A stretch of DNA of 64,000 nt from Streptomyces rimosus (GTDB lineage: Bacteria; Actinomycetota; Actinomycetes; Streptomycetales; Streptomycetaceae). Below are positions 1-13,042 of this stretch, piece by piece; the stretch's first letter is position 1, and every line of letters starts with the position of its first letter. The stretch covers positions 3,162,001-3,226,000 of the forward strand of contig NZ_CP023688.1 in assembly GCF_008704655.1 (NCBI RefSeq), in the 5' to 3' direction. The position numbers and the translations under genes were made by a program. The notes under the pieces were generated by a model. The model was not told the DNA's origin. It was given only the letters and a program-made list of their open reading frames with translations, and made no database searches.

Positions 1-1071
1 TACGGCGTCCGCCAGCAGGTCGGCTTCCTTGTTCGTCAGCCGGGGGGCGCGGCGCCGCGCGTAGGCGACGGACTCGGTGCGGGTGAAGGGCAGCACCTCG
101 ATCTCCTGGGCGCTGCCGGAGCCGGACCAGTCCCGGGTGAGGGTGGTGATCAGGACGTGGCCGCGGCCGTCCGGCACCAGGTCCTCGATCTGCTCCATGT
201 CGTCGGCGCTGTCGAAGATCAGCAGCCAGCGGCGGTACGGGCGGCCGATGCGCAGCGCCTCGTGGACGGCGCGGATGCGGTCGCCCAGCTCCTGGCCGAC
301 CGGCAGGTTCATGCGGGTGGCCAGCTCGGCGAGCTGTTCGCGGGCGGCGCCGCGGTTGGTGGCGCTGATCCACCACACCACGTCGTAGTCGTTGCCGAAG
401 CGGTGGGCGTATTCGGCGGCGATCTGGCTCTTGCCGACGCCGGAGATGCCGTAGAGGGCGATCCGGGTCTCCATCGGCTGGCCGGGCCCCGGGAGCGGGC
501 CCGCCAGCTTGCCGTGCAGCTCTTCCAGCGCGGTGTCGCGGCCGGTGAAGCGGTTGTTGCGGCGGGGGATGTTCCAGATCTCGGGCGGGTCGTTGGGGAA
601 GCGCGGGGCGTTGGCGGCGGGCTCGGTGGGGCGGCGTCCGGCGGCCGGGACGCCGAGGCGGTTCAGTACGCGCCGGTTGGCCTCGACGGCGTCCAGGTCG
701 CGCAGGTCGGCGGGGCGCAGCACGGAGGCGGTGGCGGGCAGCCGCTGGGTGGCGACGCTGACGGCGGCGAAGCGGTCGGCGTGCTCCGGTACGACTTCCT
801 GAAGGGCGGCCGTCCACTCCTCGTGGGTCTTGGGGCCGAGCTTGAAGTACCAGTCGTCCAGCACCATGAGCAGGCGGCCCTCGGCGGCGAGCAGGCCGGC
901 CAGTTCCTCGGTGAGGGGGCTGTCGGCGGCGGGGTCCCAGCGCAGCATGGTGGTGCCGTGTCCGAGCTGCTCCAGCTGGTGCGAAATCCACGCCGCCCAG
1001 GGCCGGTTGAAGCCCGCGTAACTGATGGTGATGTGCTCTGCGGAGCCGGTAATAGCGGACTGGTCGGCCAT
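1..1071 (-). CDS. TIR-like/NB-ARC STAND protein of an Fxs-type system (partial, 3' end outside window)
   Basis: 357 codons are visible and the C-terminus lies beyond base 1. Residues ~12-130 form a TIR-like alpha/beta domain (ITISYAGFNRPWAAWI near the start). After a linker comes an NB-ARC NTPase: P-loop GISGVGKS at ~206-213 and a Walker-B-like strand RWLLIFDSADD. The missing part would be the winged helix and TPR repeats if it matches the FxSxx-COOH-system TPR proteins, which share this architecture and sit beside fxsB. It starts at ATG 1071, 93 bp downstream of the fxsB-like stop on the same strand, so it is probably the last visible gene of the operon. Role inferred: nucleotide-dependent sensor or effector switch. 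TPR content cannot be confirmed here. Confidence 0.85.
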   Translation of the reverse strand, partial: MADQSAITGSAEHITISYAGFNRPWAAWISHQLEQLGHGTTMLRWDPAADSPLTEELAGLLAAEGRLLMVLDDWYFKLGPKTHEEWTAALQEVVPEHADRFAAVSVATQRLPATASVLRPADLRDLDAVEANRRVLNRLGVPAAGRRPTEPAANAPRFPNDPPEIWNIPRRNNRFTGRDTALEELHGKLAGPLPGPGQPMETRIALYGISGVGKSQIAAEYAHRFGNDYDVVWWISATNRGAAREQLAELATRMNLPVGQELGDRIRAVHEALRIGRPYRRWLLIFDSADDMEQIEDLVPDGRGHVLITTLTRDWSGSGSAQEIEVLPFTRTESVAYARRRAPRLTNKEADLLADAV

Positions 1072-1164
1072 GCGCCCGTCTCCTCGGTATGCGGCGGTTC
1101 GCGCGTGCGCGAGCTGGCTGTTCGGCACGATAGCCCAAGTATCGCCCTGTGCGGCGACGCCACG

Positions 1165-2382
1165 TCAGGTCTTGTACGCGGCGGGCCAGTTGACGGACGC
1201 GGCGGCCAGTCCGGCGGCGGGCCCGGGCGTCCGGTCCGCGTGCACCTCGGTGTCGAGGCGGGCGGCGATGTGGCGGATCACCCGTTCCAGGTCGGCGCAG
1301 TACACGGACGGGTTACGGAAGCCGCTGCCCGCCCGGTAGCGGTGGGCGTAGTTGCCGCCGCCGCACACCGTCAGCAGCGGGCAGGCGCGGCACCGCGCGC
1401 ACAGGCCGTCGGCGCCCAGGCGGCGGGCGGCCATCCCCGGGTGGGCCAGCGCCTCGTCGAAGCTGTTGCGGAAGACGTCCAGGCCGGTGGCGGCGGCGCC
1501 CTCGTACGCCGATTTGAGGGAGTCGACCTGTTCGATGGCGCCGTCGGTGTCGACCACGAGCGCGACCACGGGTGACAGGCCGACCGCCTCGCTGCTGCTG
1601 GGGCGGCCCAGGAGCAGGCCGATGATCTCGGTGAAGAGGCGTATCCGGGGCGCGGGCTCCGTTTCGTCCCACCAGAGGTCGAAGACGGTGCACAGCCAGT
1701 CGCCGTACGGGGTGCGGCTCACCGGGTCGGGCGGCAGCGGCGGGCGGCTGGTCCAGTTGGCGTGCGGGAGGAGGAAGTCGAGCATCGGGGGGCCGAGGGC
1801 GCGCAGCGAGCCGTAGACCAGGGCGGGGTCGGAGGTGATGTCGATGGTGCACAGGATGCCCGCGAAGGTGTCGGGGCGGCGGGCCAGCAGGCGGGCGGCG
1901 CGGGAGGCGGCCGCCCAGGAGGGCCGTCCCGCGTGGTCCAAGCGCCGTCGGTTCAGGCCGGGGGTGCCGCCGTCCAGGCTGAGCCCGATCCGGAAGCCCG
2001 CGGCGGCCAGGGCGTCGAGCGCCTGCGGGGTGAGGAGGGTGCCGTTGGTCTGTACGCCGAGGTGCGCGCGGCAGCCGTCCGGGAGTACGGCGCGCAGCGC
2101 GGCTGCCTGGTCGAGGAGCGGTCCCGGGCCGGTGAGCAGGGGTTCGCCGCCGTGCAGGTCGACGCGGATCTCGTCGAGGCCGTGGGTGCGTACGTGTTCG
2201 GCGATGCGCAGCGCGGTCCGGCGGACGGTGCCGGGCGGGGCGTGCGGCGGGCGGGCGCGCCAGCTGCGGTCCGGGCCCGCGTAGATGTAGCAGTAGGTGC
2301 ACGCGAGGTTGCAGCGGCTGTGGGTCTTCAGGACGAACTGGCGGAAGGGGACCGCGGGCGCCTCAAGGCTCTGGAACACCAC
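1165..2382 (-). CDS. fxsB: FxsB-like radical SAM/SPASM cyclophane-forming peptide maturase
   Basis: About 405 aa from GTG 2382 (GTG 2379 is an alternative; a G-rich ribosome site precedes both). The radical SAM cluster is C24-x3-C28-x2-C31 (SRCNLACTYCYIYAG), which binds the 4Fe-4S that cleaves SAM. HGGEPLL and QTNGTLL motifs follow in the barrel. The C-terminal part has a Cys-rich SPASM-like region (LCARCRACPLLTVCGGG, then a Cys near SVYC) for auxiliary clusters. FxsB enzymes join an aromatic ring carbon to a nearby side-chain beta carbon in a small precursor, giving a three-residue cyclophane. The adjacent upstream 75-aa ORF is the obvious substrate. The protein ends shortly after SPASM, so this is the form without the metallohydrolase-like extension. 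The reading frame is open far upstream, but that is antisense to nothing useful and lacks start signals. Confidence 0.88.
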   Translation of the reverse strand: MVFQSLEAPAVPFRQFVLKTHSRCNLACTYCYIYAGPDRSWRARPPHAPPGTVRRTALRIAEHVRTHGLDEIRVDLHGGEPLLTGPGPLLDQAAALRAVLPDGCRAHLGVQTNGTLLTPQALDALAAAGFRIGLSLDGGTPGLNRRRLDHAGRPSWAAASRAARLLARRPDTFAGILCTIDITSDPALVYGSLRALGPPMLDFLLPHANWTSRPPLPPDPVSRTPYGDWLCTVFDLWWDETEPAPRIRLFTEIIGLLLGRPSSSEAVGLSPVVALVVDTDGAIEQVDSLKSAYEGAAATGLDVFRNSFDEALAHPGMAARRLGADGLCARCRACPLLTVCGGGNYAHRYRAGSGFRNPSVYCADLERVIRHIAARLDTEVHADRTPGPAAGLAAASVNWPAAYKT

Positions 2383-2545
2383 GACGCCGCCCCCTGCCTG
2401 CGTCCGACGTCCGGGCAGCCCGATGGCGGCCCGCTGTCGCGATACCTGGCTCCGGCACGGGAGAACATGCACACGGCAAGGACAACTGGCCGGTTTCGTA
2501 GCCCGTTTGCCCAAAAACCGTCGCCCGGCGTTCAGATTCGGACGC

Positions 2546-2773
2546 TTACCGTACGGTCGGGCCCGGACCGTCGTCGTAGTACGCCACCGCCCGCTCGGCG
2601 GGGGGCCAGTTGCGCAGCAGGAGGGCGGCCACCTCCCCCAGCACCGGATGGCCCGTCCGCGCGGCCACCGCGGCCACATCGACACCGCCGAAGTCCGGCA
2701 GCGGCTCGGCCGACGGGCCGGACGGCTCGGCCGGTGCGGCCGGGGCCGTACCGGTGACGGGGACTGTCGCCAC
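2546..2773 (-). CDS. candidate cyclophane RiPP precursor lacking the canonical FxSxx C-terminus
   Basis: 75 aa from GTG 2773, preceded by an AGGAGAA ribosome site 5-6 nt upstream, the strongest in the operon. Residues 1-30 are a low-complexity Ala/Pro leader. Residues ~30-60 (VAAVAARTGHPVLGEVAALL) look helical, as a maturase-recognition segment might. The C-terminus is AVAYYDDGPGPTVR. Position (immediately upstream of the fxsB-like gene), size and architecture match FxSxx-COOH precursors, but no F-x-S-x-x end is present. Tyr-Tyr-Asp and Tyr-Asp-Asp fit the aromatic-x-Asp pattern accepted by related three-residue cyclophane enzymes, so this is my candidate core. It could instead be a diverged, inactive relative. 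The stop is TAA, with no frameshift that would restore FxSxx. Confidence 0.72.
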   Translation of the reverse strand: MATVPVTGTAPAAPAEPSGPSAEPLPDFGGVDVAAVAARTGHPVLGEVAALLLRNWPPAERAVAYYDDGPGPTVR

Positions 2774-2854
2774 GCTGTTCTCCTCTGGGCCGGGTGGACG
2801 GGGTGTTCCCGCGCGCCCGTGCGCGCAAACGCCCGGCCCGGCCGGGTCGGGCGG

Positions 2855-5800
2855 TCATTCGGACGGTTCCAGGGCGCGCATCCGCTCCCTCGTGCGCCGG
2901 GCCTCCGGGCCGTTCTCCTCGGACGCGCGCTGCCACTGCTCCCAGCTCTCCCGGTACGCGGGCAGCGCCGCCTGCGGCCCCGCCGTGTCCTCCAGGACGC
3001 CGGCCCGCCGGTGGTGGGCGCGCGCCGCCAGCAGCGGGCTGCCGGCCCGTTCGGCCGCGGCGGCGGCCCGGCGGTAGGCCGCGGCGGCGCGGTCGTGCCG
3101 CTCGCGGGAGTCGAAGCGGCGGTCCAGTACGAGCTGGACGTCACCGACCTCCAGCCATGCCTCCGCACTGACCACCGGATCGGCCGAACTGCGCGCGGCC
3201 AGCTCCAGCACCCAGTCCGCCTCGTGCAGATCGGCCAGCGAGGGCTGGCGGTCGTGGCGCAGGCGCAGGGCACGGCCGAACAGCAGGCGGTGGGAGCCCA
3301 GTTCGGGGTCGTGCGGGGCGACCCGGCCGAGCGCCTCGCGCAGCACGTGCACCGCCTCGTTCGCCAGTCGCTTGGCCTGGTCGCCGGGGGGCTCCAGGCG
3401 GGCGCGCAGCAGCAGCGCGGCGCCGCGCCGGGCGAGCAGGGAGCTGTGCTCGGGCGAGTCGGGGGTGGTCAGGCGCAGCGCGGCGGCCAGCGCATCGATG
3501 GCCGCGTCCAGCGCTTCCGGGTCGGCGGTGCGGGCGTGCAGAGCGCTGTACGCCTCGGCCGTACGGCTCAGGCTCTCCGCCTCCAGGGCCGGGTCGCGCA
3601 GTTCCCGGGCGAGCGCGCGGGCCCGCTCCAGGACCGGGAGCACGGCGTCCGGGCCGGTGCCGCCGCCGAGCAGCGAGCGGGCCTGGGCCAGCTCCAGCAG
3701 CGTCTCGCAGACCTCGCGGTCCGCGGAGCCGCCCCGGCGGCGCAGCAGGGTCGTGGCGGCGTCCAGATCGGCGGTGGCGCGCAGGGCGAGCGCCCCGGCG
3801 TACGTCTCGGTGGCCTCCTCGTGTCCGGCGGCGCGGCGCGCCTGGTCCAGCAGGACACCGCCGCGCGCGGCGTAGATCTCGCCGGGCACCTGCTCGCCGC
3901 TGGGCCACTGTTCCAGGAGGGTGGTCAGGGCCTGTTCGGCCTCGTCGAGCGGGTCGGCGGCGCGGCCGGTGAAGGCCGTGGCGGCCGAGGGCAGCGCGGC
4001 CAGCCGCCGCAGCACTTCGGTACGCAGCACCATGCTCTCCAATACGCGGGGATCCAGCAGGCTCATCAGCCCGCAGGCGGTGTCCAGGTGGCGCGCGGCC
4101 TCCTCCAACGCGCTCCGTTCACCGTCCGGGTACCCCGCGGCGCCGCGTTCCTGCGCGGCGGCGTAGCGCACCCGGGCGAGCACGATCAGCGCCCTGACGC
4201 GCGCCTCGCCGTCCCCGTCCGGCGTCTGCGCCGGATCGCCGCCGACGGCCTCGGCGGCCGCCCGTACCGCCCGTTCCGCCTCCTCCAGCGCGTCCGGCTG
4301 CCGCCACTTCGCCCAGCCGTGCAGCAGCGCGCGGGCGAGGTCGGTGCCCGCGGCGGGCAGGCTCTGCGCCGCCGCGCGCAGCAGCCGCACGGCTTCGATC
4401 AAGTCCCGTACCGTGCCCTCCTGTTCGTAGCGCGCCAGCAGCGCGGCGCCCTCGGCGGCGGGCCCGTCGGGCGCGTACGACAGCTGTGCGGGCGTCCGCA
4501 GGGCCGGTTCGAACCGGCGCAGCACCCGCTCGGAGATCCGCGCGAACGGCTCGGGCACGGCGCGCTGCCCGGTCGTCGGTTCCCGGCCGCTGCCGGAGAG
4601 CATGGCGACCGCGACCGCGGGGAAGTTCCGGGCGCTGCGGCCGAACGTGCGCTCGATGTAGAGGGAGCAGTGCTTGAGGACGAGGGCGGCCTCGCCGGCG
4701 CTCAGGCGGCTCAGCAGCTCGTCCCGTACGCCGGGCACGAATTCGTACCAGGGGCCGCCGGCCGGGCCCTCGCCACCCGGCGGGCCCGCGGGGTCGGGAA
4801 GCTGCTCTATCAGGCCGCTGAGCAGCACCTCCGCCAGCTCGGCGGGGCCGGTCTGGGGCAGCATCGCGCGCTGGACGAGCTGGATGACGGGCAGCGCGAG
4901 CGGTACGGCCGACAGGTGGACGGCCAGATGGCGGGCGTCCGGCGAAGCGGTCTGCTCGAACTCGCGCACCAGCCGGGACGGTTCGGGGCGCTCGGCGGCG
5001 CGGGCGACGTCCGTGCCCAGGCCGTGGTCGCAGCGGACGACGGCGGCGGCGCCGCGCAGCGACAGGCCGGAATCGGCCGCGGCCAGCCGGGCCCAGCCGC
5101 CGAGGGCCGCGGGCGCGGCCGACAGGACCGGTACGGCGCGCTCGCGGGTGCCGCCCTGCGTCTGCCCGGCCGTGGCGGGGGTACGGCGGCGGCGCCGGGC
5201 GGGGCGGAAGTCCAGGGCGCGGTACGGGCCCTGCTGCCGTACGAGCGTGCCCGCGACGGCGGGCAGCAGGGTGCGCGCCCACATCCGCTGCGGCAGCGGC
5301 TGTACGACGGCGAGCGGCGCGTCGGCCACCCAGCGGTACAGCAGGCGCTGGATGCGCCCGTCGCGCCACAGCGGGCCCGCGCAGTCGCTCACGATGAGGG
5401 TGACGTGGTGGCCCGTGGGGTCGTGCAGCTGGTCGGCGGGGCGCAGCGGCGCGTCCCGGCCGGGGCCCGCGGCGACGCCGACCTCGTCGCCGTACGGGTG
5501 GAGGTAGTGCACCGTCACGTCGCGGAAGGCGCCGACCCGCTCGCAGACCTGCCGCAGGTCGTGCAGCATCTGCTCCCACACGGCCATGGAGGAGGAGCCG
5601 TCCATGAGCAGGCGCAGGCTGGCCGCGCGGCGGCGGACGCCGCGCAGCACCGGGATGATCATCTCGGCGTGTGCGGAGAGTTCGGCGGTGGCGTCCTCGT
5701 CCAGCTCCTGGCGGACCGGGGCGACCGGCGGGTGGTAGCGCTGGATCGGCCGCAGGGCGCGCTGCAGCGGCAGCAGGCCCGGGAAGGCGGAGGCCACGGG

Positions 5801-6163
5801 GATGCCGACCTCGCCGAGGCGGCCGTGGTCGGGGGCCAGGGTGCGGTCGTCCTGGGCGGGCAGCAGGTCCACTTCCGTGCGCCGGGGGCGGTCCCGGGCG
5901 GCGGGCTCCGTGACGGACGGCGTGTCGCGGGCGGAATCCCGGCCACGGGAATCCACAGAGAAAGTGGCCGGTTTTGGACCCTGTGCGGTGGGCGGAACCG
6001 TCTCCTCGGCAGGCGTCACGTCGCCGTCGGCCGCCCCCGGGGTGATCCACCGGGCCAGCCACAGGGCGTCCGCCAGAGCGCGGGCGTCCGCGGGCAGGCC
6101 GGCCGCGCGCAGCCGTGCGACGATCTCACCGAGGGGGCCGTGGCCCGGTCCGCCGGCCGGCAC
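2855..6163 (-). CDS. vWA/TPR protein (SAV_2336-N-like) of a vWA-MoxR-VMAP system
   Basis: 1102 aa from GTG 6163, six bases after the AAA+ ATPase stop, so translation is probably coupled. Residues ~1-100 are an Arg/Pro-rich N-terminal segment resembling the SAV_2336 N-terminal family. A von Willebrand A-like fold follows: MIDAS D188-x-S190-x-S192 (LMDGSSSM), then IVSDCAG near residue 258. After a middle region, residues ~640-1095 are Ala/Leu-rich helical repeats of TPR type, ending in a basic/acidic tail. In vWA-MoxR-VMAP systems the vWA protein works with the MoxR ATPase as a chaperone-like module and the repeats recruit partners. Neighbours on both sides support that assignment. Family naming is from memory; the MIDAS is seen directly. 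Confidence 0.82.
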   Translation of the reverse strand: MPAGGPGHGPLGEIVARLRAAGLPADARALADALWLARWITPGAADGDVTPAEETVPPTAQGPKPATFSVDSRGRDSARDTPSVTEPAARDRPRRTEVDLLPAQDDRTLAPDHGRLGEVGIPVASAFPGLLPLQRALRPIQRYHPPVAPVRQELDEDATAELSAHAEMIIPVLRGVRRRAASLRLLMDGSSSMAVWEQMLHDLRQVCERVGAFRDVTVHYLHPYGDEVGVAAGPGRDAPLRPADQLHDPTGHHVTLIVSDCAGPLWRDGRIQRLLYRWVADAPLAVVQPLPQRMWARTLLPAVAGTLVRQQGPYRALDFRPARRRRRTPATAGQTQGGTRERAVPVLSAAPAALGGWARLAAADSGLSLRGAAAVVRCDHGLGTDVARAAERPEPSRLVREFEQTASPDARHLAVHLSAVPLALPVIQLVQRAMLPQTGPAELAEVLLSGLIEQLPDPAGPPGGEGPAGGPWYEFVPGVRDELLSRLSAGEAALVLKHCSLYIERTFGRSARNFPAVAVAMLSGSGREPTTGQRAVPEPFARISERVLRRFEPALRTPAQLSYAPDGPAAEGAALLARYEQEGTVRDLIEAVRLLRAAAQSLPAAGTDLARALLHGWAKWRQPDALEEAERAVRAAAEAVGGDPAQTPDGDGEARVRALIVLARVRYAAAQERGAAGYPDGERSALEEAARHLDTACGLMSLLDPRVLESMVLRTEVLRRLAALPSAATAFTGRAADPLDEAEQALTTLLEQWPSGEQVPGEIYAARGGVLLDQARRAAGHEEATETYAGALALRATADLDAATTLLRRRGGSADREVCETLLELAQARSLLGGGTGPDAVLPVLERARALARELRDPALEAESLSRTAEAYSALHARTADPEALDAAIDALAAALRLTTPDSPEHSSLLARRGAALLLRARLEPPGDQAKRLANEAVHVLREALGRVAPHDPELGSHRLLFGRALRLRHDRQPSLADLHEADWVLELAARSSADPVVSAEAWLEVGDVQLVLDRRFDSRERHDRAAAAYRRAAAAAERAGSPLLAARAHHRRAGVLEDTAGPQAALPAYRESWEQWQRASEENGPEARRTRERMRALEPSE

Positions 6164-6169
6164 CGCGGA

Positions 6170-7228
6170 TCACCTGGTCCGATCCAGGGGCCGCAGCAGC
6201 TCGGCCGTCAGGCGCCGCCGCGTCTCCTCCTCGTCCTCGTCCGCCCAGCCGGCCTGCCGCGTCAGGTGGATCGCGTTGAGCAGCTGGTCCACGGCCCGTA
6301 CGTCGCCGGGCTCGCGGTCCAGGAAGCGGTCGATGACGGACTCGTGCTCGGCCGCGGCGCTCTCGCCGAAGTGCGCCCGCACCATGTCCGCGAGCCGCTC
6401 CTTGTCGGGCGTGGGGATGTTCAGGTGGATACAGCGGCGCAGCAGCGGCGCGGGGAAGTCCCGCTCGCCGTTGCTGGTCAGCACGATGAACGGGAAGGCG
6501 CGGCAGCGCACCCGGCCGTCCCGCACGGTGACCCGTACGCCGTCGTCGCTCAGCACCGGCACCTCGGGGGCCGATCCGGCCAGCCGCTCCAGCTCCGGAA
6601 TCCGGAACTCCCCTTCCTCCAGCACGTTGAGCAGGTCGTTCGGCAGGTCGATGTCGCTCTTGTCCAGCTCGTCGACGAGCAGCACACGCGGCTTCGCGGC
6701 GGGCAGCAGGGCCGTGCCGAGCGGGCCGAGACGGATGTAGCGGCCGATGCCGCCGCCCGGCTCGTCCTGCGGGCCCGGCCGCCCCTCCGCCGGCCCCGGC
6801 GTCGTCTGCGGGCGGGCCGCGCGGGCGATCTGGAGGTCCTGGAGGCGACCGATGGCGTCGTACTCGTACAGCCCGTCACGCAGCGAACTGCGGCTGACGA
6901 TGGACCAGTTCAGCACCCGGCCGAGGCCCAGTTCGTAGGCGACCGAGTGCGCGAGGGTGGACTTCCCGCTGCCCGGGGCGCCCGTCACCAGCAGGGGACG
7001 GCGCAGGTAGAGCGCCGCGTTGACCAGCTCGCGCTCGGTCTCGCCCGGCCGGTGGTAGCTGGCCTCGCGGCGCTGCACGCCGAGCCGGCGCTCGGAGGCG
7101 TGGTCGAGAGCCGTGGGCGGCGCCACGAGCGGGCCGCCGTCGAAATCGCGCCATGGAGGGGGTGGCGGTAACTGCTCGATGCCGTCGTGCGGAGCCCCCG
7201 CGCCACGGTAGATGAGCCAGTCGCTCAC
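6170..7228 (-). CDS. MoxR-like AAA+ ATPase
   Basis: 352 aa from GTG 7228 with GAGGAG 8 nt upstream; the upstream extension to 7288 has no ribosome site and is low complexity. Walker A GAPGSGKS at residues 83-90, Walker B LLVDELDKSD with Asp-Glu, sensor 1 LTSNGERDFP, and an arginine-rich ring-interface segment (PLLRRCIHL). ELDKSD followed by ERDFP is the usual MoxR pattern. The C-terminal ~80 aa form the helical lid. Partner of the downstream vWA protein (6-bp gap). Expected to form a ring that remodels a target or controls the vWA/VMAP proteins. The first 60 aa carry a Pro-rich stretch. The 183 bp before the gene could hold a secondary promoter. Confidence 0.9.
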   Translation of the reverse strand: MSDWLIYRGAGAPHDGIEQLPPPPPWRDFDGGPLVAPPTALDHASERRLGVQRREASYHRPGETERELVNAALYLRRPLLVTGAPGSGKSTLAHSVAYELGLGRVLNWSIVSRSSLRDGLYEYDAIGRLQDLQIARAARPQTTPGPAEGRPGPQDEPGGGIGRYIRLGPLGTALLPAAKPRVLLVDELDKSDIDLPNDLLNVLEEGEFRIPELERLAGSAPEVPVLSDDGVRVTVRDGRVRCRAFPFIVLTSNGERDFPAPLLRRCIHLNIPTPDKERLADMVRAHFGESAAAEHESVIDRFLDREPGDVRAVDQLLNAIHLTRQAGWADEDEEETRRRLTAELLRPLDRTR

Positions 7229-7411
7229 GTCGGAACTCCTCGTCGCCGGCCGGCCATCGGGCAGGGGCGCGGGGCCGCGGCGGAGCATCCGGCAAGCGTC
7301 GGCGCCGCTTCCCGCCCTCCCCGGACCCGTCCCCCTGGCAATCTCTCACGACGCTAGGACAGTAACCAGCCGGACGGAAGGACACGGGGCGTTTTCCGGT
7401 CTCGGGTGCCG

Positions 7412-9583
7412 TCATTGGGGCGACAATTGCGTGCCCTGGGAGAAGAGTTGGGGGATCGGGTTGCCCGGGTCGTCATAGAGCAGCACGAGATCGCGGGCCC
7501 AGGAGGCACCGCCCTCCGCGGCCTTGGCGCGCAGCTCACGCACCAGTTCGGGAAGCTCGGCCACCGACTTCGGCGCCCCGAGCAGCTGCCGCACCTCCCG
7601 GTGGAACTCGTCACACACCCGGTCGCAGTCGCGCTCGTCGTGCCCCCCGGCCGGCCACAGCGCCACCGGGTGGCCGGCGTCCAGCGCCCACCCGACGGCC
7701 TCCAGCCCGGTGCCGTCCGCCACCGACCGGCACAGCGCCGGGACCGCGCCCTCGTCCGCCTCCTCCAGCAGCCGCGACAGCCCCGAAACCGACGCCCGTG
7801 GGCCGGGCGGCACCCGCAGCGCCGTCAACCGCCCCGCACCGACCAGCCCCTGCCAACGCCGCAGCCAGGCCGGATCGACCCCCTCCCGGTCCTCCTGGCG
7901 GCGCCCCTGGTCGCGCAGCACCACTGCGCGCGCCGGGCCCAGCGGGCGCAGCCGCGCCGTACGGCGGGTGGAGGCGGGCACCTGCCAGCGGTCCGCAGCG
8001 GTGTGCCAGTGCTCCTCCGGAACCGCCACCTCCAGACGCACCCGGACGCCGCCCGCCGCGTCGTCCGCACGCAGCAGACGCGGCCCCAGCCGCCGCAGAA
8101 CCTGGCCGCGTGCCTCCTCGAAGGTCATGCCGTTCCGCGACTCCTGGACCTCGACGCGCTGCCACTGCCCCTGGCCGTACCCCTCGCTCACCGACCAGTT
8201 GAACAGCTGCCGCCCGCCCGCATCGTCATAGAACAGCGGCTCGAACTCCACCAGGACCGAGTCCGGGCGGCGCCGCACCGGGCCGATCCGCTCCCGGTCC
8301 CGGGGCAGCAGGACGACCGCCTTGGCCGCCACGAACAGGGCCAGCCGCTCGGCCGCCGCACGCATCCCGGCCCCCTCGTCACCGGGTACGCCGCGCGCCT
8401 CGTCGGCGGTGCGCTGCGCGACGATGCGCAGGTAGTGCACGAAGGCGCACAGCTCCGTGTACGGGTCGCTGCCCTGGTAGAGCGCACCGTGCCCGTCCCG
8501 CCACGTACGCAGCGTCCACGGCCCGGCCCGCCCCGTACGGCCCGAAGGATCCGCACGGCCCAGCGCCTCGGCGACCGCGGCCGCCACCACCAGCGGATCG
8601 CGGGGCGCGGGCAGCGACGCCAGCAGATCGAGCGCCTGCAGCCGCTCCTGCACGCCCCACAGCCGGCCGCGCCCCGACATGATCGCGTGCTGCGCGTCGA
8701 ACCAGGTCGGCTCACCCGACCCGCCGAGATCCTGCCCCGCCCAGTGCCAGCGGTCGTGGAGGCTCATCAGCGCGTGGTACGGATCGTCGCCGAGCCCCTC
8801 GGCTCCCGGTACGAGGTGGTACGGGGCCAGCCGCCGCAACTCCGTCACCGGCACCGCGAGCCCGACCCGGTCCTCACGGTGACTTCCCTTGACGATGCCG
8901 ACGACCTCCCCGCGGTCACAGTCCAGCAGCGGCCCGCCGGACGCGCCCGGGGTGACCCGCACATCACTGCCGAACTGGAGCCCGCGGGCGTCGCGGGCGC
9001 CGAAGCGGACGGCGATGAAGGGATCGACGTCCATGGGGGCGGGGGCGATCATGTGGGCCGGGGCAGGGCAGGCACCGACGGCGTCGTCCTCGCCGGGCCC
9101 GTGACCGGCGTCCGTACCGGCCCCGGGCCGATCATGCCCCCGGAAGATGAACGCGTCCTCCAGAAGCGCCGCCGGCTGATCACTGAGCCAGGCGCACGGG
9201 TGCGCGACATCCGGATCGACCAGCCGCAGCAGGGCCAGGTCGGTACGGGGGCCGTGGCCGGCCGGGTACTCGGGCGCCGGGCGGCTCAGGTCGTACTCCA
9301 GACGCGCGGCGGCCACCCGGCCCCCGAACGCGACACCGACCTCCCCGCCCGGCCCGGTCGGGCGGCGCCGCCCGTCCCCGCTGACCAGCACATGTGCGCA
9401 GGTCAACACCCACCCGGGTGCCACGAACACACCGCTGCCCCACAGCGGGGCCGGGTCCACGCCGGGCGCCGCGCGTACGGCGACGGTGGCGCGGCCCGCG
9501 TGGCCGAGGAGATGCGCGTACTTCTCACGGTCGGCGCGCTCGGAGCGCGCCGACCCCTGACCGCCTTCCGAGGCCGCCATCAC
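7412..9583 (-). CDS. trypsin-like serine protease fused to VMAP-type effector-associated/C-terminal domains
   Basis: 723 aa from GTG 9583 (second codon ATG 9580). An N-terminal trypsin fold of ~235 aa has its complete triad: H64 (LTCAHVL), D115 (TDLALLRL) and S215 (PGASGGPLL). No signal peptide is present, so the protease is cytosolic. Residues ~285-370 (RGRLWGVQERLQALDLLASL) look like an effector-associated adaptor helix bundle. The C-terminal ~350 aa, with GHPVALWP, a Cys/Phe segment and LVLLYDDPGNPIPQ near the end, resemble the VMAP-C region of vWA-MoxR-associated proteins. Overlaps the upstream small gene by 4 bp (GTGA). Family knowledge: VMAP is the third component of ternary conflict systems, with the N-terminal peptidase as candidate effector. 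It might also process the RiPP precursor (inference). Confidence 0.85.
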   Translation of the reverse strand: MMAASEGGQGSARSERADREKYAHLLGHAGRATVAVRAAPGVDPAPLWGSGVFVAPGWVLTCAHVLVSGDGRRRPTGPGGEVGVAFGGRVAAARLEYDLSRPAPEYPAGHGPRTDLALLRLVDPDVAHPCAWLSDQPAALLEDAFIFRGHDRPGAGTDAGHGPGEDDAVGACPAPAHMIAPAPMDVDPFIAVRFGARDARGLQFGSDVRVTPGASGGPLLDCDRGEVVGIVKGSHREDRVGLAVPVTELRRLAPYHLVPGAEGLGDDPYHALMSLHDRWHWAGQDLGGSGEPTWFDAQHAIMSGRGRLWGVQERLQALDLLASLPAPRDPLVVAAAVAEALGRADPSGRTGRAGPWTLRTWRDGHGALYQGSDPYTELCAFVHYLRIVAQRTADEARGVPGDEGAGMRAAAERLALFVAAKAVVLLPRDRERIGPVRRRPDSVLVEFEPLFYDDAGGRQLFNWSVSEGYGQGQWQRVEVQESRNGMTFEEARGQVLRRLGPRLLRADDAAGGVRVRLEVAVPEEHWHTAADRWQVPASTRRTARLRPLGPARAVVLRDQGRRQEDREGVDPAWLRRWQGLVGAGRLTALRVPPGPRASVSGLSRLLEEADEGAVPALCRSVADGTGLEAVGWALDAGHPVALWPAGGHDERDCDRVCDEFHREVRQLLGAPKSVAELPELVRELRAKAAEGGASWARDLVLLYDDPGNPIPQLFSQGTQLSPQ

Positions 9584-9975
9584 GCGCCCGAATCGTCCGG
9601 CCCTCGGCCGTCGCTCCGGCCCTGATCCACCGCCGCCGCTTCCCGCTCCCCGCGCCGCCAGGTGAGCGTCACCGACAGGTTCGCCTTGGCCTCACCGTCC
9701 GCGAGCAGCGCCACGGCGCGGCCCGGCTTGGCCGCCACCTCCACCCCGAAACTGACGCTGGTCTCGTCCGGAGCCACCCGCTCGGTAGCCGCCCGCAGAC
9801 TGGCCGCGACCCCGCCGACCAGCTCGCGCAGCCCCTCCACGCGGGCGCCGAGGGCGTCCCAGACGCCCACGTCGTCGTACTCTTCATCCGGATCGCCCGT
9901 TATGTCCAACCGGGAGACGCGGGCCCAGACCTGGGTCCCGTCGGGCAGCTCGATGAGATGTGCGCGATCGCGCAT
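9580..9975 (-). CDS. trypco2 / CU044_2847-type small protein
   Basis: 131 aa from ATG 9975. An AGGAGG site sits 5 nt before this ATG but only 2 nt before the preceding GTG (9978), which decides the start. The N-terminal half has a beta-strand start (LIELPDGTQVWARVSR) and a helix (ARVEGLRELVGGVAASL). The second half has the SFGVEVAAKPGRAVALL and KANLSVTLTW strands seen in small proteins that accompany trypsin-like conflict proteins. The C-terminal ~20 aa are disordered and acidic. First gene of the minus-strand operon; its TGA overlaps the protease start. Likely an accessory or partner of the protease. Function unknown. Confidence 0.8.
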   Translation of the reverse strand: MRDRAHLIELPDGTQVWARVSRLDITGDPDEEYDDVGVWDALGARVEGLRELVGGVAASLRAATERVAPDETSVSFGVEVAAKPGRAVALLADGEAKANLSVTLTWRRGEREAAAVDQGRSDGRGPDDSGA

Positions 9976-10025
9976 CACGGCCTCCTGCTCCCCCTGAGCG
10001 GCAATGTCGCACTGCCCCAGGGCCG

Positions 10026-10054
10026 TTGACAGGTGATCAGGTTATCCCCAGGGT
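10026..10054 (+). promoter_or_regulatory. candidate promoter for the DUF6104 gene
   Basis: A perfect TTGACA -35 at 10026-10031, 17 bp, then CAGGGT at 10049-10054, about 75 bp before the start codon. The interval lies between the divergent minus-strand operon and the plus-strand gene, so both must start here. The -10 is a poor match. Confidence 0.4.
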
Positions 10055-10127
10055 GCGAGTGACGCGAGGGGTCGCGGCGCCTGCCTATCCTGGCCCGGAA
10101 CGTCACGGAAACCAGGTGGAGAACACG

Positions 10128-10304
10128 GTGTATTTCACGGATCGCGGTATCGAGGAACTGGAGAGCCGACGCGGCGAGGAAGAGGTCACCCTGGCCTGGC
10201 TGGCCGACCAGCTCCGCACGTTCGTGGACCTCAACCCCGACTTCGAGGTCCCGGTAGAGCGCCTGGCGACGTGGCTGGCGCGCTTGGACGACGAGGAGGA
10301 GTAG
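10128..10304 (+). CDS. DUF6104 family small acidic protein
   Basis: 58 aa from GTG 10128, preceded by GGTGGAG. It begins MYFTDRGIEELESRRGEEEV and ends in a run of Asp/Glu. No membrane segment or cysteines. This is a short conserved actinobacterial family of unknown function (DUF6104 from memory). It is transcribed divergently from the protease/RiPP operon with 152 bp between the start codons. It may be unrelated to the operon, or it may share its control region. Followed by two hairpins. Confidence 0.75.
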   Translation: MYFTDRGIEELESRRGEEEVTLAWLADQLRTFVDLNPDFEVPVERLATWLARLDDEEE

Positions 10305-10348
10305 TCACGCTTGCGTGACGGGGCACCGGGGTGAGGCTTGCCCCGGTG
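10304..10348 (+). terminator. tandem hairpins after DUF6104 gene
   Basis: GTCACGC-TT-GCGTGAC at 10304-10319 overlaps the stop codon, and CACCGGGG-9 nt-CCCCGGTG at 10324-10348 follows. Both stems are perfect. No U-tract, as usual in streptomycete terminators. Confidence 0.55.
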
Positions 10349-10432
10349 GGTGTGCGGTGCGGTTGCCCCGGTGGGGGTTCGCCTTGGCGCCCGGGGTTCG
10401 GTGGGTGGGGGCTCGGGGCCCCGCAGGGGTCA

Positions 10433-10497
10433 CTCCTCGGCGCCTGGAGCGGCCGTCATGTATGGACGCAACCGGGGCTTCGGTCGCCTGCGGGGAG
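10433..10497 (+). repeat. inverted repeat copy A (65 bp)
   Basis: Begins CTCCTCGGCGCC and ends CTGCGGGGAG. Read on the opposite strand, copy B at 10739-10802 matches at 56 positions: the first 29 bases, 11 central bases and the last 16 are identical. Weaker similarity extends left of the core. A short ORF opening Met-Tyr-Gly-Arg-Asn begins inside it. Confidence 0.85.
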
Positions 10498-10738
10498 ACC
10501 CCTACGTGTCCCCGAGCCCGGCCGGTAGGCGACTTTCCCGCCGCCGTGGCGGGGGTCTTTTACAGACCCCCGGCGGCCGGACCCATACGGCCCCCTCCGC
10601 ATAACGCGAAGGCGCCCCGGGCCCTGTGCCTACGCAAGGCGAGCGTCGCCGCATGGTGGGCGCGCACCAGGTTTCTTTTCCCCTCCCCCCACCGGCCCGC
10701 ACTCGCCAATCCGACGGGAGGGGGTGTGCAGGGGGACA
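10498..10738. other. non-coding spacer between inverted repeats
   Basis: 241 bp without a credible gene. Contains a perfect hairpin CGGGGGTC-TTTTACA-GACCCCCG at 10550-10572 and pyrimidine-rich tracts near 10675-10695. ORFs cross it in several frames but none has a ribosome site or a family-like sequence. Confidence 0.6.
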
Positions 10739-10802
10739 CTCCCCGCAGGCGACCGTTACATGGTTGCGTCCAGACATGACGGCCGCTCCAGGCGCCGAGG
10801 AG
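10739..10802 (-). repeat. inverted repeat copy B (64 bp)
   Basis: Reverse complement of copy A with one substitution and a divergent 7-8 base centre. On the minus strand it opens an ORF beginning Met-Ser-Gly-Arg-Asn, parallel to copy A, suggesting descent from one small element inserted or duplicated in opposite orientations. Confidence 0.85.
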
Positions 10803-10919
10803 ATGGCCCCCTGGGCACCCCCGCCCCACAACAAAGCCAATGCGTATCCGCGCGAAGCGCGGTCCAGTACACCCAACCCCGCACCAACGCGCACCCAATA
10901 CTTGGCCCACCACGCCATG

Positions 10920-10929
10920 CGATATATCG
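10920..10929. promoter_or_regulatory. palindrome CGATATATCG, candidate PadR operator
   Basis: Perfect 10-bp AT-rich palindrome followed by TGAG, 55 bp before the DUF4097 start. An isolated AT island in GC-rich sequence upstream of an operon that encodes a PadR regulator suggests autoregulation. PadR operators are often ATAT-rich palindromes. Confidence 0.4.
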
Positions 10930-10983
10930 TGAGGCGCGGATACGCGATAGCTCGCGTCACCGCAACCCAGGGGAGGCCAGGAC

Positions 10984-11910
10984 ATGTCAGCCCGGACCGA
11001 GTGGTCGGTCTCCGCACCGCGCACGCTGGAGATCGAGGAAGAGGTCACCGCACTGGAGGTGCGCGTCGTCGGCGGCACCGTCAACGTCGTCGGGACGACC
11101 GACGGCGGCCGCCCCCGCGTGGAGATCAGCGAGCTGTCCGGCCCGCCGCTGACCGTACGGCAGGAGGCGGGCACGCTCACCGTCACGTACGACGACCTGC
11201 CCTGGAAGGGCTTCCTGAAGTTCCTCGACCGCAAGGGCTGGCACCGCAGCGCAGTGGTCTCGGTCACCGTCCCCACCGCGACGAACGTCGCGATCGGCAC
11301 CGTGGGGGCGAGTGCGGTGATCTCGGGGATCGACGGGCGTACGGAGCTGCGCGGCGTGTCGGGGGACAGCACCCTCGTCCGCCTGACGGGCCCCGTACGG
11401 GCCGAGACCGTGTCCGGACGGGTGGAGGGCCAGGCCGTCACGGGCGACCTGAGGTTCAACTCGGTCTCGGGCGACCTGACCCTCATCGAGGGGTCGGGCG
11501 CCACCGTGAAGGCGGATTCGGTCAGCGGCGACATGGTCCTGGATCTCGATCCGGCGGCGACGGGTACGGACGTCCAGCTGACGACGGTTTCCGGCGAGGT
11601 CGCCATCCGGCTGCCCGCGCCGGGCGACGCCGAGGTGGACGCGAACACGACCAGCGGTACGGTCGCCAACGCCTTCGAGGATCTGCGGGTCAGCGGCCAG
11701 TGGGGGGCCAAGCGGATCACGGGCCGGCTCGGCTCGGGCAGCGGCCGGCTGAAGGTCACCACGCTCTCCGGCGGCCTGGCCCTGCTGCGCCGCCCGCCGT
11801 CCCCGGACGATCGGCACCGCCCGCCGTCCCCGGACGACCGGCACCGCCCGCCGTCCCCGGACGGCCCCGCCGACACCACGGACTCCCCCGCCGACAAGAA
11901 GGTGCTCTGA
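10984..11910 (+). CDS. DUF4097 family beta-strand-repeat protein
   Basis: 308 aa from ATG 10984 with GGGGAGG upstream. The body is a repetitive right-handed beta structure: recurring ETVSGRV, FNSVSGDL, ADSVSGDM, LTTVSGEV and TTSGTV units about 20-25 aa apart, the signature of DUF4097/DUF4098 proteins. No signal peptide or membrane segment, so it is probably cytoplasmic. The last ~50 aa are disordered and include three copies of a Pro-Ser-Pro-Asp-Asp unit. Stop is 4 bp before the padR start: an operon in which the adhesin-like protein and the regulator are co-expressed. Molecular function unknown. Confidence 0.85.
   Translation: MSARTEWSVSAPRTLEIEEEVTALEVRVVGGTVNVVGTTDGGRPRVEISELSGPPLTVRQEAGTLTVTYDDLPWKGFLKFLDRKGWHRSAVVSVTVPTATNVAIGTVGASAVISGIDGRTELRGVSGDSTLVRLTGPVRAETVSGRVEGQAVTGDLRFNSVSGDLTLIEGSGATVKADSVSGDMVLDLDPAATGTDVQLTTVSGEVAIRLPAPGDAEVDANTTSGTVANAFEDLRVSGQWGAKRITGRLGSGSGRLKVTTLSGGLALLRRPPSPDDRHRPPSPDDRHRPPSPDGPADTTDSPADKKVL
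11791..11862 (+). repeat. 27-bp in-frame tandem repeat in DUF4097 gene
   Basis: Two and two-thirds copies (11791-11817, 11818-11844, 11845-11862) encoding RPPSPDDRH. Copies differ at one base (gat/gac), so the expansion is recent; copy number may vary between strains. Confidence 0.9.
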
Positions 11911-11914
11911 ACCC

Positions 11915-13042
11915 ATGCCTCCCGTCTTCGCCCACGGCCGCCTCCGCCTCTACCTGCTCAAGCTGCTGGACGAGGCGCCGCGGCACGGTTACGAGATCAT
12001 CCGCCTGCTGGAGGAGCGTTTCCAGGGCCTGTACGCACCGTCCGCCGGCACGGTCTACCCGCGGCTGGCCAAGCTGGAGGCCGAGGGGCTGGTCACCCAT
12101 ACCACCGAGGGCGGCCGCAAGGTGTATTCGATCACCGCGGCGGGGCGCGCCGAACTGGCGGACCGGGGCGGTGAGCTGGCGGATCTGGAGATGGAGATCC
12201 GGGAGTCGGTCGCGGCGCTGGCGTCCGACATCCGGGAGGACGTGAGCGGCTCGGCGCGGGACGTGCGCCGCGAGATGCGGGAGGCCGCCAAACAGGCCCG
12301 GCAGGGCCGGCGCGGCGGCGAGGAGCACGATTTCCCGGACGCCTCCGATTTCTTCGACGGCCGGTACGGCGACCGGGAGTCCTGGCGGCAGGCGAAGGAG
12401 GAGTTCCGCCGCGCCAAGGAGGAGTGGAAGGAGCAGGCGCGGCGGGCGAAGGAGGAGAGCCGGCGGGCCAAGCAGGACGCGCAGCGGGCGCGCAAGCAGG
12501 CCCGCGAGGCGCGGTCGTTCGTGCGCGACGAGGTCCAGGAGGCCATCAAGCGCGTACAGGAACAGGCCCAGGAGCATGTACGTACCGGGGACTGGGCCGG
12601 GGCCCTGCGCGAGGCGCTGTCGGAGGTCTCGCGCGAGGTGGGCCGGTTCACGGCCGGGCCGGAGGGGGCGGCGGGCGCGGACCGGCCGGGCGGGGGCGCC
12701 GGGCAGGCGCCGGAGGACGGCGGCGGCGTGGGCCTCACCAAGGAGGACGCCGCGACGCGGCCCGGCGGTGACGGTCGTGGCGCGGCGCGCGCGGAGGCCG
12801 CCGGCCGGGTGCCCCCGGAGCCCGCGTGGGCGTCCGAGCCCGGTTCCGGCGACCCGGCGCGGGACTTCGACCGGCTGCTGGACCGCTTCCGCGACGACCT
12901 GCGGGACGCCGCGCGCGATCACGGTGTGACGGCGGAGCAGTTGAAGGACGTACGCAGCCGTCTGTCCGCGACCGCTGCGCACGTCGGAGCGTTGCTGCGT
13001 GACCCGGAGGCATATGCGGCCGGACAGGAGCCGCCGCGCTGA
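11915..13042 (+). CDS. PadR family regulator with long charged C-terminal extension
   Basis: 375 aa from ATG 11915. Residues 1-85 are a PadR winged helix (LRLYLLKLLDEAPRHGYEII, then YPRLAKLEAEGLV and GGRKVYSITAAGRAEL). PadR proteins are normally 110-200 aa. Here the rest is a long Arg/Glu/Ala/Lys-rich helix with coiled-coil character (~95-230, e.g. AKEEFRRAKEEWKEQARRAK), a Gly/Ala linker, and a final conserved ~60-aa helical segment (DFDRLLDRFRDDLRDAARDHG). No membrane anchor is visible. Likely represses its own operon through the upstream ATAT palindrome. The extension probably handles dimerisation or a partner, possibly the DUF4097 protein. Confidence 0.88.
   Translation: MPPVFAHGRLRLYLLKLLDEAPRHGYEIIRLLEERFQGLYAPSAGTVYPRLAKLEAEGLVTHTTEGGRKVYSITAAGRAELADRGGELADLEMEIRESVAALASDIREDVSGSARDVRREMREAAKQARQGRRGGEEHDFPDASDFFDGRYGDRESWRQAKEEFRRAKEEWKEQARRAKEESRRAKQDAQRARKQAREARSFVRDEVQEAIKRVQEQAQEHVRTGDWAGALREALSEVSREVGRFTAGPEGAAGADRPGGGAGQAPEDGGGVGLTKEDAATRPGGDGRGAARAEAAGRVPPEPAWASEPGSGDPARDFDRLLDRFRDDLRDAARDHGVTAEQLKDVRSRLSATAAHVGALLRDPEAYAAGQEPPR

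Follow-up and report, generated by a model that had tools for sequence, protein, structure and literature searches.

VMAP-ternary conflict systems are among the closest described relatives of the locus studied here. In Kaur et al. 2020 (PMC7159879), the core of their peptide module consists of a zincin-like metallopeptidase gene and a small protein, the peptide types listed are FxSxx, RxD, acidic and FtsH-associated, and these peptides are proposed to act as toxins or signals. We take this zincin-like gene to correspond to TIGR04267, the NCBIfam aKG-HExxH-type peptide beta-hydroxylase, which together with TIGR04268, TIGR04269 and NF040586 describes the FxSxx-COOH system. Another NCBIfam model, the equivalog NF041709, is named 'YxD-tail cyclophane-containing RiPP peptide', and a review that cites Sugiyama et al. 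2022 states that YxdB makes a C3(Tyr)-Cbeta(Asp) link (PMC11002830). Their names suggest that NF041709 and YxdB belong together. ChlB is a multiple-cyclophane synthase, according to the title of a paper cited in PMC12636437, and the same source describes ChlH as an HExxH hydroxylase that acts on His and Asp in its cyclophane peptide.

A YxD-tail precursor and its operon

In the window, by which we mean the whole 64-kb stretch of DNA analysed, a 75-amino-acid ORF with a GTG start lies on the minus strand (2546..2773), and a ribosome-binding-site-like AGAGGAG, read from the sequence (2780..2786, minus strand), stands six bases 5' of that GTG. LPDF and HPVL motifs occupy the leader (residues 25-45), the core AVAYYDDGP covers residues 62-70, and the C-terminal tail is AVAYYDDGPGPTVR (R61-A-V-A-Y65-Y66-D67-D68-G69-P70-G-P-T-V-R75). 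Against NF041709 the ORF scored 86.7 bits (cut-off 55; E = 7.1e-25) over residues 24-70, with Y66-D67-D68 near the C-terminus in the conserved YxD register. Of 18 proteins found in a protein search, with what is probably the window's own in first place, 15 carried the NF041709 family name at their source (NCBI). The pattern YY[DE]D[GSA]P occurred once in the six frames of the window. Judged by homology, a chance origin of the ORF is excluded. An F-x-S-x-x C-terminus is not present, the peptide ending in GPGPTVR, and TIGR04268, the FxSxx-COOH precursor model, gave no match at E values up to 0.1.

The initial annotation had described this ORF as a precursor in size, leader and ribosome site, with a Tyr-x-Asp core in place of FxSxx and an FxsB-like maturase beside it, and this description stands. 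The adjoining gene, just downstream (1165..2382, minus strand; GTG at 2382 or 2379), encodes a radical SAM/SPASM maturase of the FxsB/YxdB type that scored 425.1 bits against TIGR04269 (FxsB; cut-off 370), and a Tyr-x-Asp cyclophane core is well supported. The YYDD-type block is conserved in orthologues next to FxsB-like maturases, the comparison by which the annotation had proposed to check itself. Its suggestion of an undescribed product class finds no support: the NF041709 equivalog already exists, and the Tyr-Asp crosslink of YxdB is in print (PMC11002830). By its match the precursor belongs to this already named class, which is not new. It shares with NF041709 and the YxdA-YxdB triceptide a score above the cut-off, the Y-x-D core and an adjacent FxsB-family maturase, and nothing was found that would place it outside; the window copy reads YYDD, with Asp as x.

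The operon lies entirely on the minus strand and is transcribed in the order Trypco1, trypsin-VMAP-C, MoxR, SAV_2336/vWA-type, precursor, maturase, TIR-NB-ARC-TPR. The Trypco1 (trypsin-co-occurring) protein (9580..9978) matched PF19493 (1.5e-17) and NF041216, and the next gene (7412..9583) fuses a trypsin-like domain to a VMAP-C domain (PF20028, 1.3e-40; PF13365, 1.6e-13). It is followed by a MoxR-type AAA ATPase (6170..7288; PF07728 AAA_5, 31.6 bits, cut-off 22) and by a SAV_2336 N-terminal-domain protein of 1102 amino acids (2855..6163; NF041121, 420.5 bits), the translation of which contains DGSSS, presumably the MIDAS-like motif of vWA domains. MoxR-type AAA and VMAP-C were thus above Pfam cut-offs at the locus; the SAV_2336 protein had no match to Pfam vWA, and we treat it as the probable vWA component from NF041121 and the DGSSS motif. 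The TIR-NB-ARC-TPR gene, represented in the window by the part encoding the N-terminal portion (1..1071; NF040586 FxSxx_TPR, 853.8 bits, cut-off 300), runs out of the window (L072:8066-11071). Beyond it is a convergent 2-oxoglutarate dehydrogenase gene (sucA; Pfam E1_dh, OxoGdeHyase_C), and the other flank holds a DUF4097 gene (10984-11910, plus strand) and a PadR gene (11915-13042). Rfam found nothing in window positions 1-12000, and an export or leader-protease gene was not identified. A trypsin site after R61 was considered as the point of cleavage by the trypsin-VMAP protein and rejected, Arg standing there in 2 of the 51 Asp-type relatives listed. Because PADLOC models gave no match for five of the seven operon proteins, and weak, partial matches for the radical SAM (viperin-like) and MoxR proteins, we do not claim a named defence system.

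In layout, both the YxD-type and the FxS-type operons match the VMAP-ternary conflict type. With the VMAP-ternary systems that carry a peptide-processing module, as given in PMC7159879, the window locus shares MoxR, trypsin-VMAP-C and Trypco1 genes, a putative vWA-type gene, a separate TIR AP-ATPase-TPR gene, a radical SAM gene and a small peptide, but it departs from the module described there in having no HExxH gene and a peptide of the YxD type. With the FxSxx-COOH system it has in common the operon layout, leader motifs, maturase family, TIR-NB-ARC-TPR protein and, often, the same address beside sucA, whereas its core is Y-x-D rather than F-x-S/N and both the FxSxx C-terminus and the HExxH gene are missing.

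Register of the putative ring among relatives

Relatives were collected in two samples, one of 40 stretches of 19-20 kb from Streptomycetaceae genomes, covering 40 of 76 listed places, and one of 79 loci from named genomes, for which the 80 best of 560 matches had been kept. Of the 119 loci, 112 yielded a precursor, and 107 of these were kept after five with duplicate maturases were dropped; the seven loci without one, all from the 79 (L136, L145 and L147-L151), were left out of the counts. The 107 precursors listed comprise 51 of an Asp type and 56 of an FxS type, and L082 and L083, with F-x-N in columns 66-68 (numbered as in the window precursor), were placed in the Asp set by hand, in agreement with the maturase tree. 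Across the class, 2 of 394 genomes had an NF041709 match above the cut-off (G000, the window's own, and G104). Within the family, 10 of 297 genomes had one, and 146 of the 297 had a TIGR04268 match above its own cut-off. The narrow NF041709 cut-off was reached by 11 of the 23 Asp-type loci found in the family survey. Y-x-D was absent from columns 65-68 in 10 of the 51 Asp-type members listed, seven reading YHED and the others DFGD, YFEN and YFSD. The YHED tails, which put His-x-Asp in the ring columns, belong to L037, L039-L041, L043, L044 and L046. Since four of these seven pass the NF041709 cut-off without a Y-x-D in columns 65-68, the family name is unfit for some of its members.

The initial annotation had also set the cyclophane eight or more residues before the C-terminus. 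Seven residues follow D68 in the window precursor, 2 to 17 follow the same column in 50 of the 51 Asp-type relatives listed (2 in 25 of the 51), and 29 follow it in the remaining one, L102, which has two core copies; because this count varies, the class cannot be defined by how far the core stands from the C-terminus.

By alignment, the Asp-type and FxS-type peptides fall in the same register. Among the 51 Asp-type precursors listed, column 66 held Y in 40, H in 7 and F in 4, and column 68 held D in 49 and N in 2. Column 65 was more mixed (Y in 37, H in 7, F in 2 and D, E, S, R and Q once each), and column 67 held E in 36, D in 11, G in 3 and S in 1. An aromatic-x-Asp triplet occupied columns 66-68 in 49 of the 51 and columns 65-67 in 10. 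The 56 FxS-type precursors listed were aromatic without exception in column 66 (F in 53, Y in 2, W in 1), held S in 31, N in 21, E in 3 and A in 1 in column 68, and were never aromatic in column 65, where 53 had G or A (35 and 18) and the others T, N or D. Because these columns are conserved in the Asp type and coincide with the aromatic and acceptor columns of the FxS type, Y66-D67-D68 is the likely ring, with Y66 and D68 as the probable crosslinked pair. The two crosslinks first considered, Y-Y-D and Y-D-D, can thus be told apart, and it is Y-D-D that the alignment favours. The F-x-N of L082 and L083 in columns 66-68 counts against this choice.

That the crosslink lies instead in Y65-Y66-D67, or that both rings form, appears rather improbable. 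YYDD does contain both Y-x-D triplets, an aromatic-x-[D/E/N] stands in columns 65-67 of 44 of the 51 Asp-type relatives listed, and L083, which reads Y-F-D-N, has Y-x-D in columns 65-67 only; yet the five single D, E, S, R and Q residues in column 65, the G or S in column 67 of 4 of the 51 and the total lack of aromatics in column 65 of the FxS type all speak against this register. We give next to no weight to the idea that the precursor is of the FxSxx type, with a frameshift or an error in sequencing having removed its tail and left YYDD by accident. Leader motifs and operon are indeed common to this precursor and FxSxx precursors, but many genomes conserve the YYDD-type tail, NCBIfam has a separate model for it, the TIGR04268 search was negative, and the orthologues that share the tail refute the loss. 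The comparison makes it testable whether Y65 or Y66 is the tyrosine that takes part in the link. The natural series YED/YDD/YGD, HED, FGD/FSD and FEN/FDN likewise makes it testable whether one maturase clade takes Tyr, His and Phe donors.

Two variations on the core were seen in passing. The Asp-type precursor of L102 (Streptomyces sp. CBMA152) has tandem core copies, GAYFSDAP and GAYFADAP, and in the FxS-clade precursors of L099, L107 and L114 the ring column holds Tyr or Trp (GYGSAF, GWNNSF).

Maturase clades and the HExxH gene

The CxxxCxxC motif of the maturase and its C-terminal cysteines C329, C332, C338 and C360 (counted from the F at 2376) were invariant in a 32-sequence alignment. Its AlphaFold2 model (mean pLDDT 81.5) lay nearest, among solved structures, to the ChlB complexes 9gm3 and 9gmc (TM 0.85, 36% identity), so that ChlB is its closest solved relative; the ChlA/ChlB system differs in its ChlH hydroxylase, with none at the window locus. 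In a numbering that starts from the GTG at 2379, positions separating the Asp and FxS clades include R72, D/E74, L89, T178, V266, S269 and N343. Among those that do so almost fully, position 72 is R in 49 and H in 1 of the Asp clade as against S in 21, A in 20 and D in 14 of the FxS clade; position 74 is D or E in 48 of 50 of the former and V in all 55 of the latter; and position 178 is T in 48 and A in 2 as against V in 55. In the model, R72 and D/E74 lie on the strand that leads to the HGGEP motif, and a different strand ends at T178. These three residues may shape the substrate site, and the clade-separating positions are candidates for core selectivity. A maturase-matched stretch in Micromonospora parva (L150:8001-9170) is interrupted by two stop codons in its assigned frame, which may reflect a damaged gene or match segments that were joined together.

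The two peptide types also differ in the hydroxylase. By protein comparison, an HExxH gene was present at none of 50 assessable Asp-type loci and at all 53 assessable FxS-type loci, with L042, L110, L122 and L123, cut near contig ends, uncounted; the Fisher p of 1.3e-30 overstates the case, because a single change on the maturase tree suffices. Of the seven loci in which no precursor was recognised, five had an HExxH match. TIGR04267 had no match in the whole window genome, the window locus included. Elsewhere in the genome, it matched in 8 of 22 Asp-type genomes, so HExxH action in trans is possible in those eight, and at least once in each of 17 FxS-type genomes. The literature searched, a body that does not include the original triceptide paper, held no mention of a split of HExxH by peptide type. 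It becomes testable why a beta-hydroxylase gene goes with FxS-type operons and not with YxD-type ones.

Operon types beside sucA and the proposed role of the peptide

The address beside sucA is common but not universal. sucA fell within the fetched stretch at 41 of the 51 Asp-type and 41 of the 56 FxS-type loci listed; some misses are contig ends (for example L042, L110, L111, L122 and L123), and sucA was also not found in the long stretches of L047, L084, L102, L105 and L109, among others. Gene trees were built by quick searches with SH-aLRT support and left unrooted, with long branches at L036, L045, L047 and L052; the radical SAM tree covers 38 of 40 loci, L042 and L053 being omitted. The maturase, MoxR, TIR-NB-ARC-TPR and vWA-type trees, of 38 loci each, all showed one change by peptide type, with support of 98-100. 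The sucA tree (33 loci) needed four changes of peptide type, at least three of them forced by well-supported branches, and the DUF4097 tree (30 loci) needed seven, two of them forced, with 72 to 79 of 500 shuffles clustering the label as well. Because the operon gene trees split once while the flanking sucA needs four changes, these sequences suggest, as the simplest reading, that the operon has been swapped whole while its address stayed fixed.

A wider interpretation is offered tentatively, as a possibility to which we lean less than even. The YxD and FxS operons would be whole-operon allotypes that exclude each other at a single immune-like locus next to sucA in Streptomycetaceae, swapped as a unit via recombination in the conserved flanks, and each peptide chemistry (hydroxylase-free Tyr-x-Asp or hydroxylase-linked Phe-x-Ser/Asn) would serve its own vWA/MoxR/TIR-NB-ARC partners as a private signal. 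As part of this tentative view, the His-x-Asp and Phe-x-Asp/Asn cores of the Asp clade would give further cyclophane types. The useful additions made here are the split by operon type and the YxD/HxD/FxD series found in nature; the family being known, the peptide as such is ordinary.

Building on the observed gene, family membership, operon and register conservation, we consider it probable that the ORF is a YxdA-type precursor of a three-residue cyclophane RiPP, with a predicted Tyr66-Asp68 link installed by the adjacent maturase and a putative signal role linked to VMAP and TIR. The maturase would bind the leader (LPDF...HPVL) and join the Tyr66 ring, probably at C3, to the Asp68 beta-carbon by a C-C bond; this chemistry is taken by analogy from the account of a relative, YxdB, in PMC11002830. 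The leader would then be removed, and the modified peptide would act as a signal sensed within, or amplifying, the VMAP-ternary system, with the TIR-NB-ARC-TPR protein as the presumed effector. The YxD version of the operon would work without the HExxH beta-hydroxylase, unlike the FxSxx version. From the gene neighbourhood we infer that signalling is the most likely role.

A product that merely sits in a VMAP operon, for example an antibiotic-like accessory compound, is an unlikely competitor to a signal. It would explain why a YxdA-radical SAM pair occurs away from VMAP genes in the window's own genome (L036) and why 3 of the 51 Asp-clade loci listed lack a vWA-type match, but it fits poorly with the vWA-type gene in the other 48, the TIR-NB-ARC-TPR gene in 49 of the 51 and the joint splitting of the operon genes by peptide type. 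It is very improbable that the annotated precursor stays unmodified while the maturase acts on another peptide: the two genes stand side by side in 51 Asp-clade loci, although these were found via either one.

The second pair in the window's genome (L036:9857-11262; G000:C1, about 132 kb) consists of a YxD precursor with the tail AVAFYDDAPPVA (71.5 bits) and an FxsB-family maturase (413.6 bits). The 20-kb stretch of L036 held no VMAP or TIR-NB-ARC-TPR genes, and a 180-aa ORF following the pair had no Pfam or NCBIfam match. L045 (whose maturase is the same as that of L097, Streptomyces sp. LaPpAH-108) and L106 each have a YxD-type precursor, a maturase and a TIR-NB-ARC-TPR gene, with no vWA-type or VMAP match in their fetched stretches.

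The DUF4097 protein carries PPSPDDRHR in tandem near its C-terminus, as two complete units and a partial one (window about 11800-11890). An intergenic element of about 420 bp (window 10408-10827; also at G000:C1:3151630-3152062 and elsewhere) had no Rfam match and had any match in 3 of 41 genomes, its own included, the other two in short pieces only. This MITE-like element is bounded by terminal inverted repeats of 66 nt that are imperfect (82% complementary), and the window's genome has ten near-full-length copies, itself included, at 86-100% identity besides partial ones.
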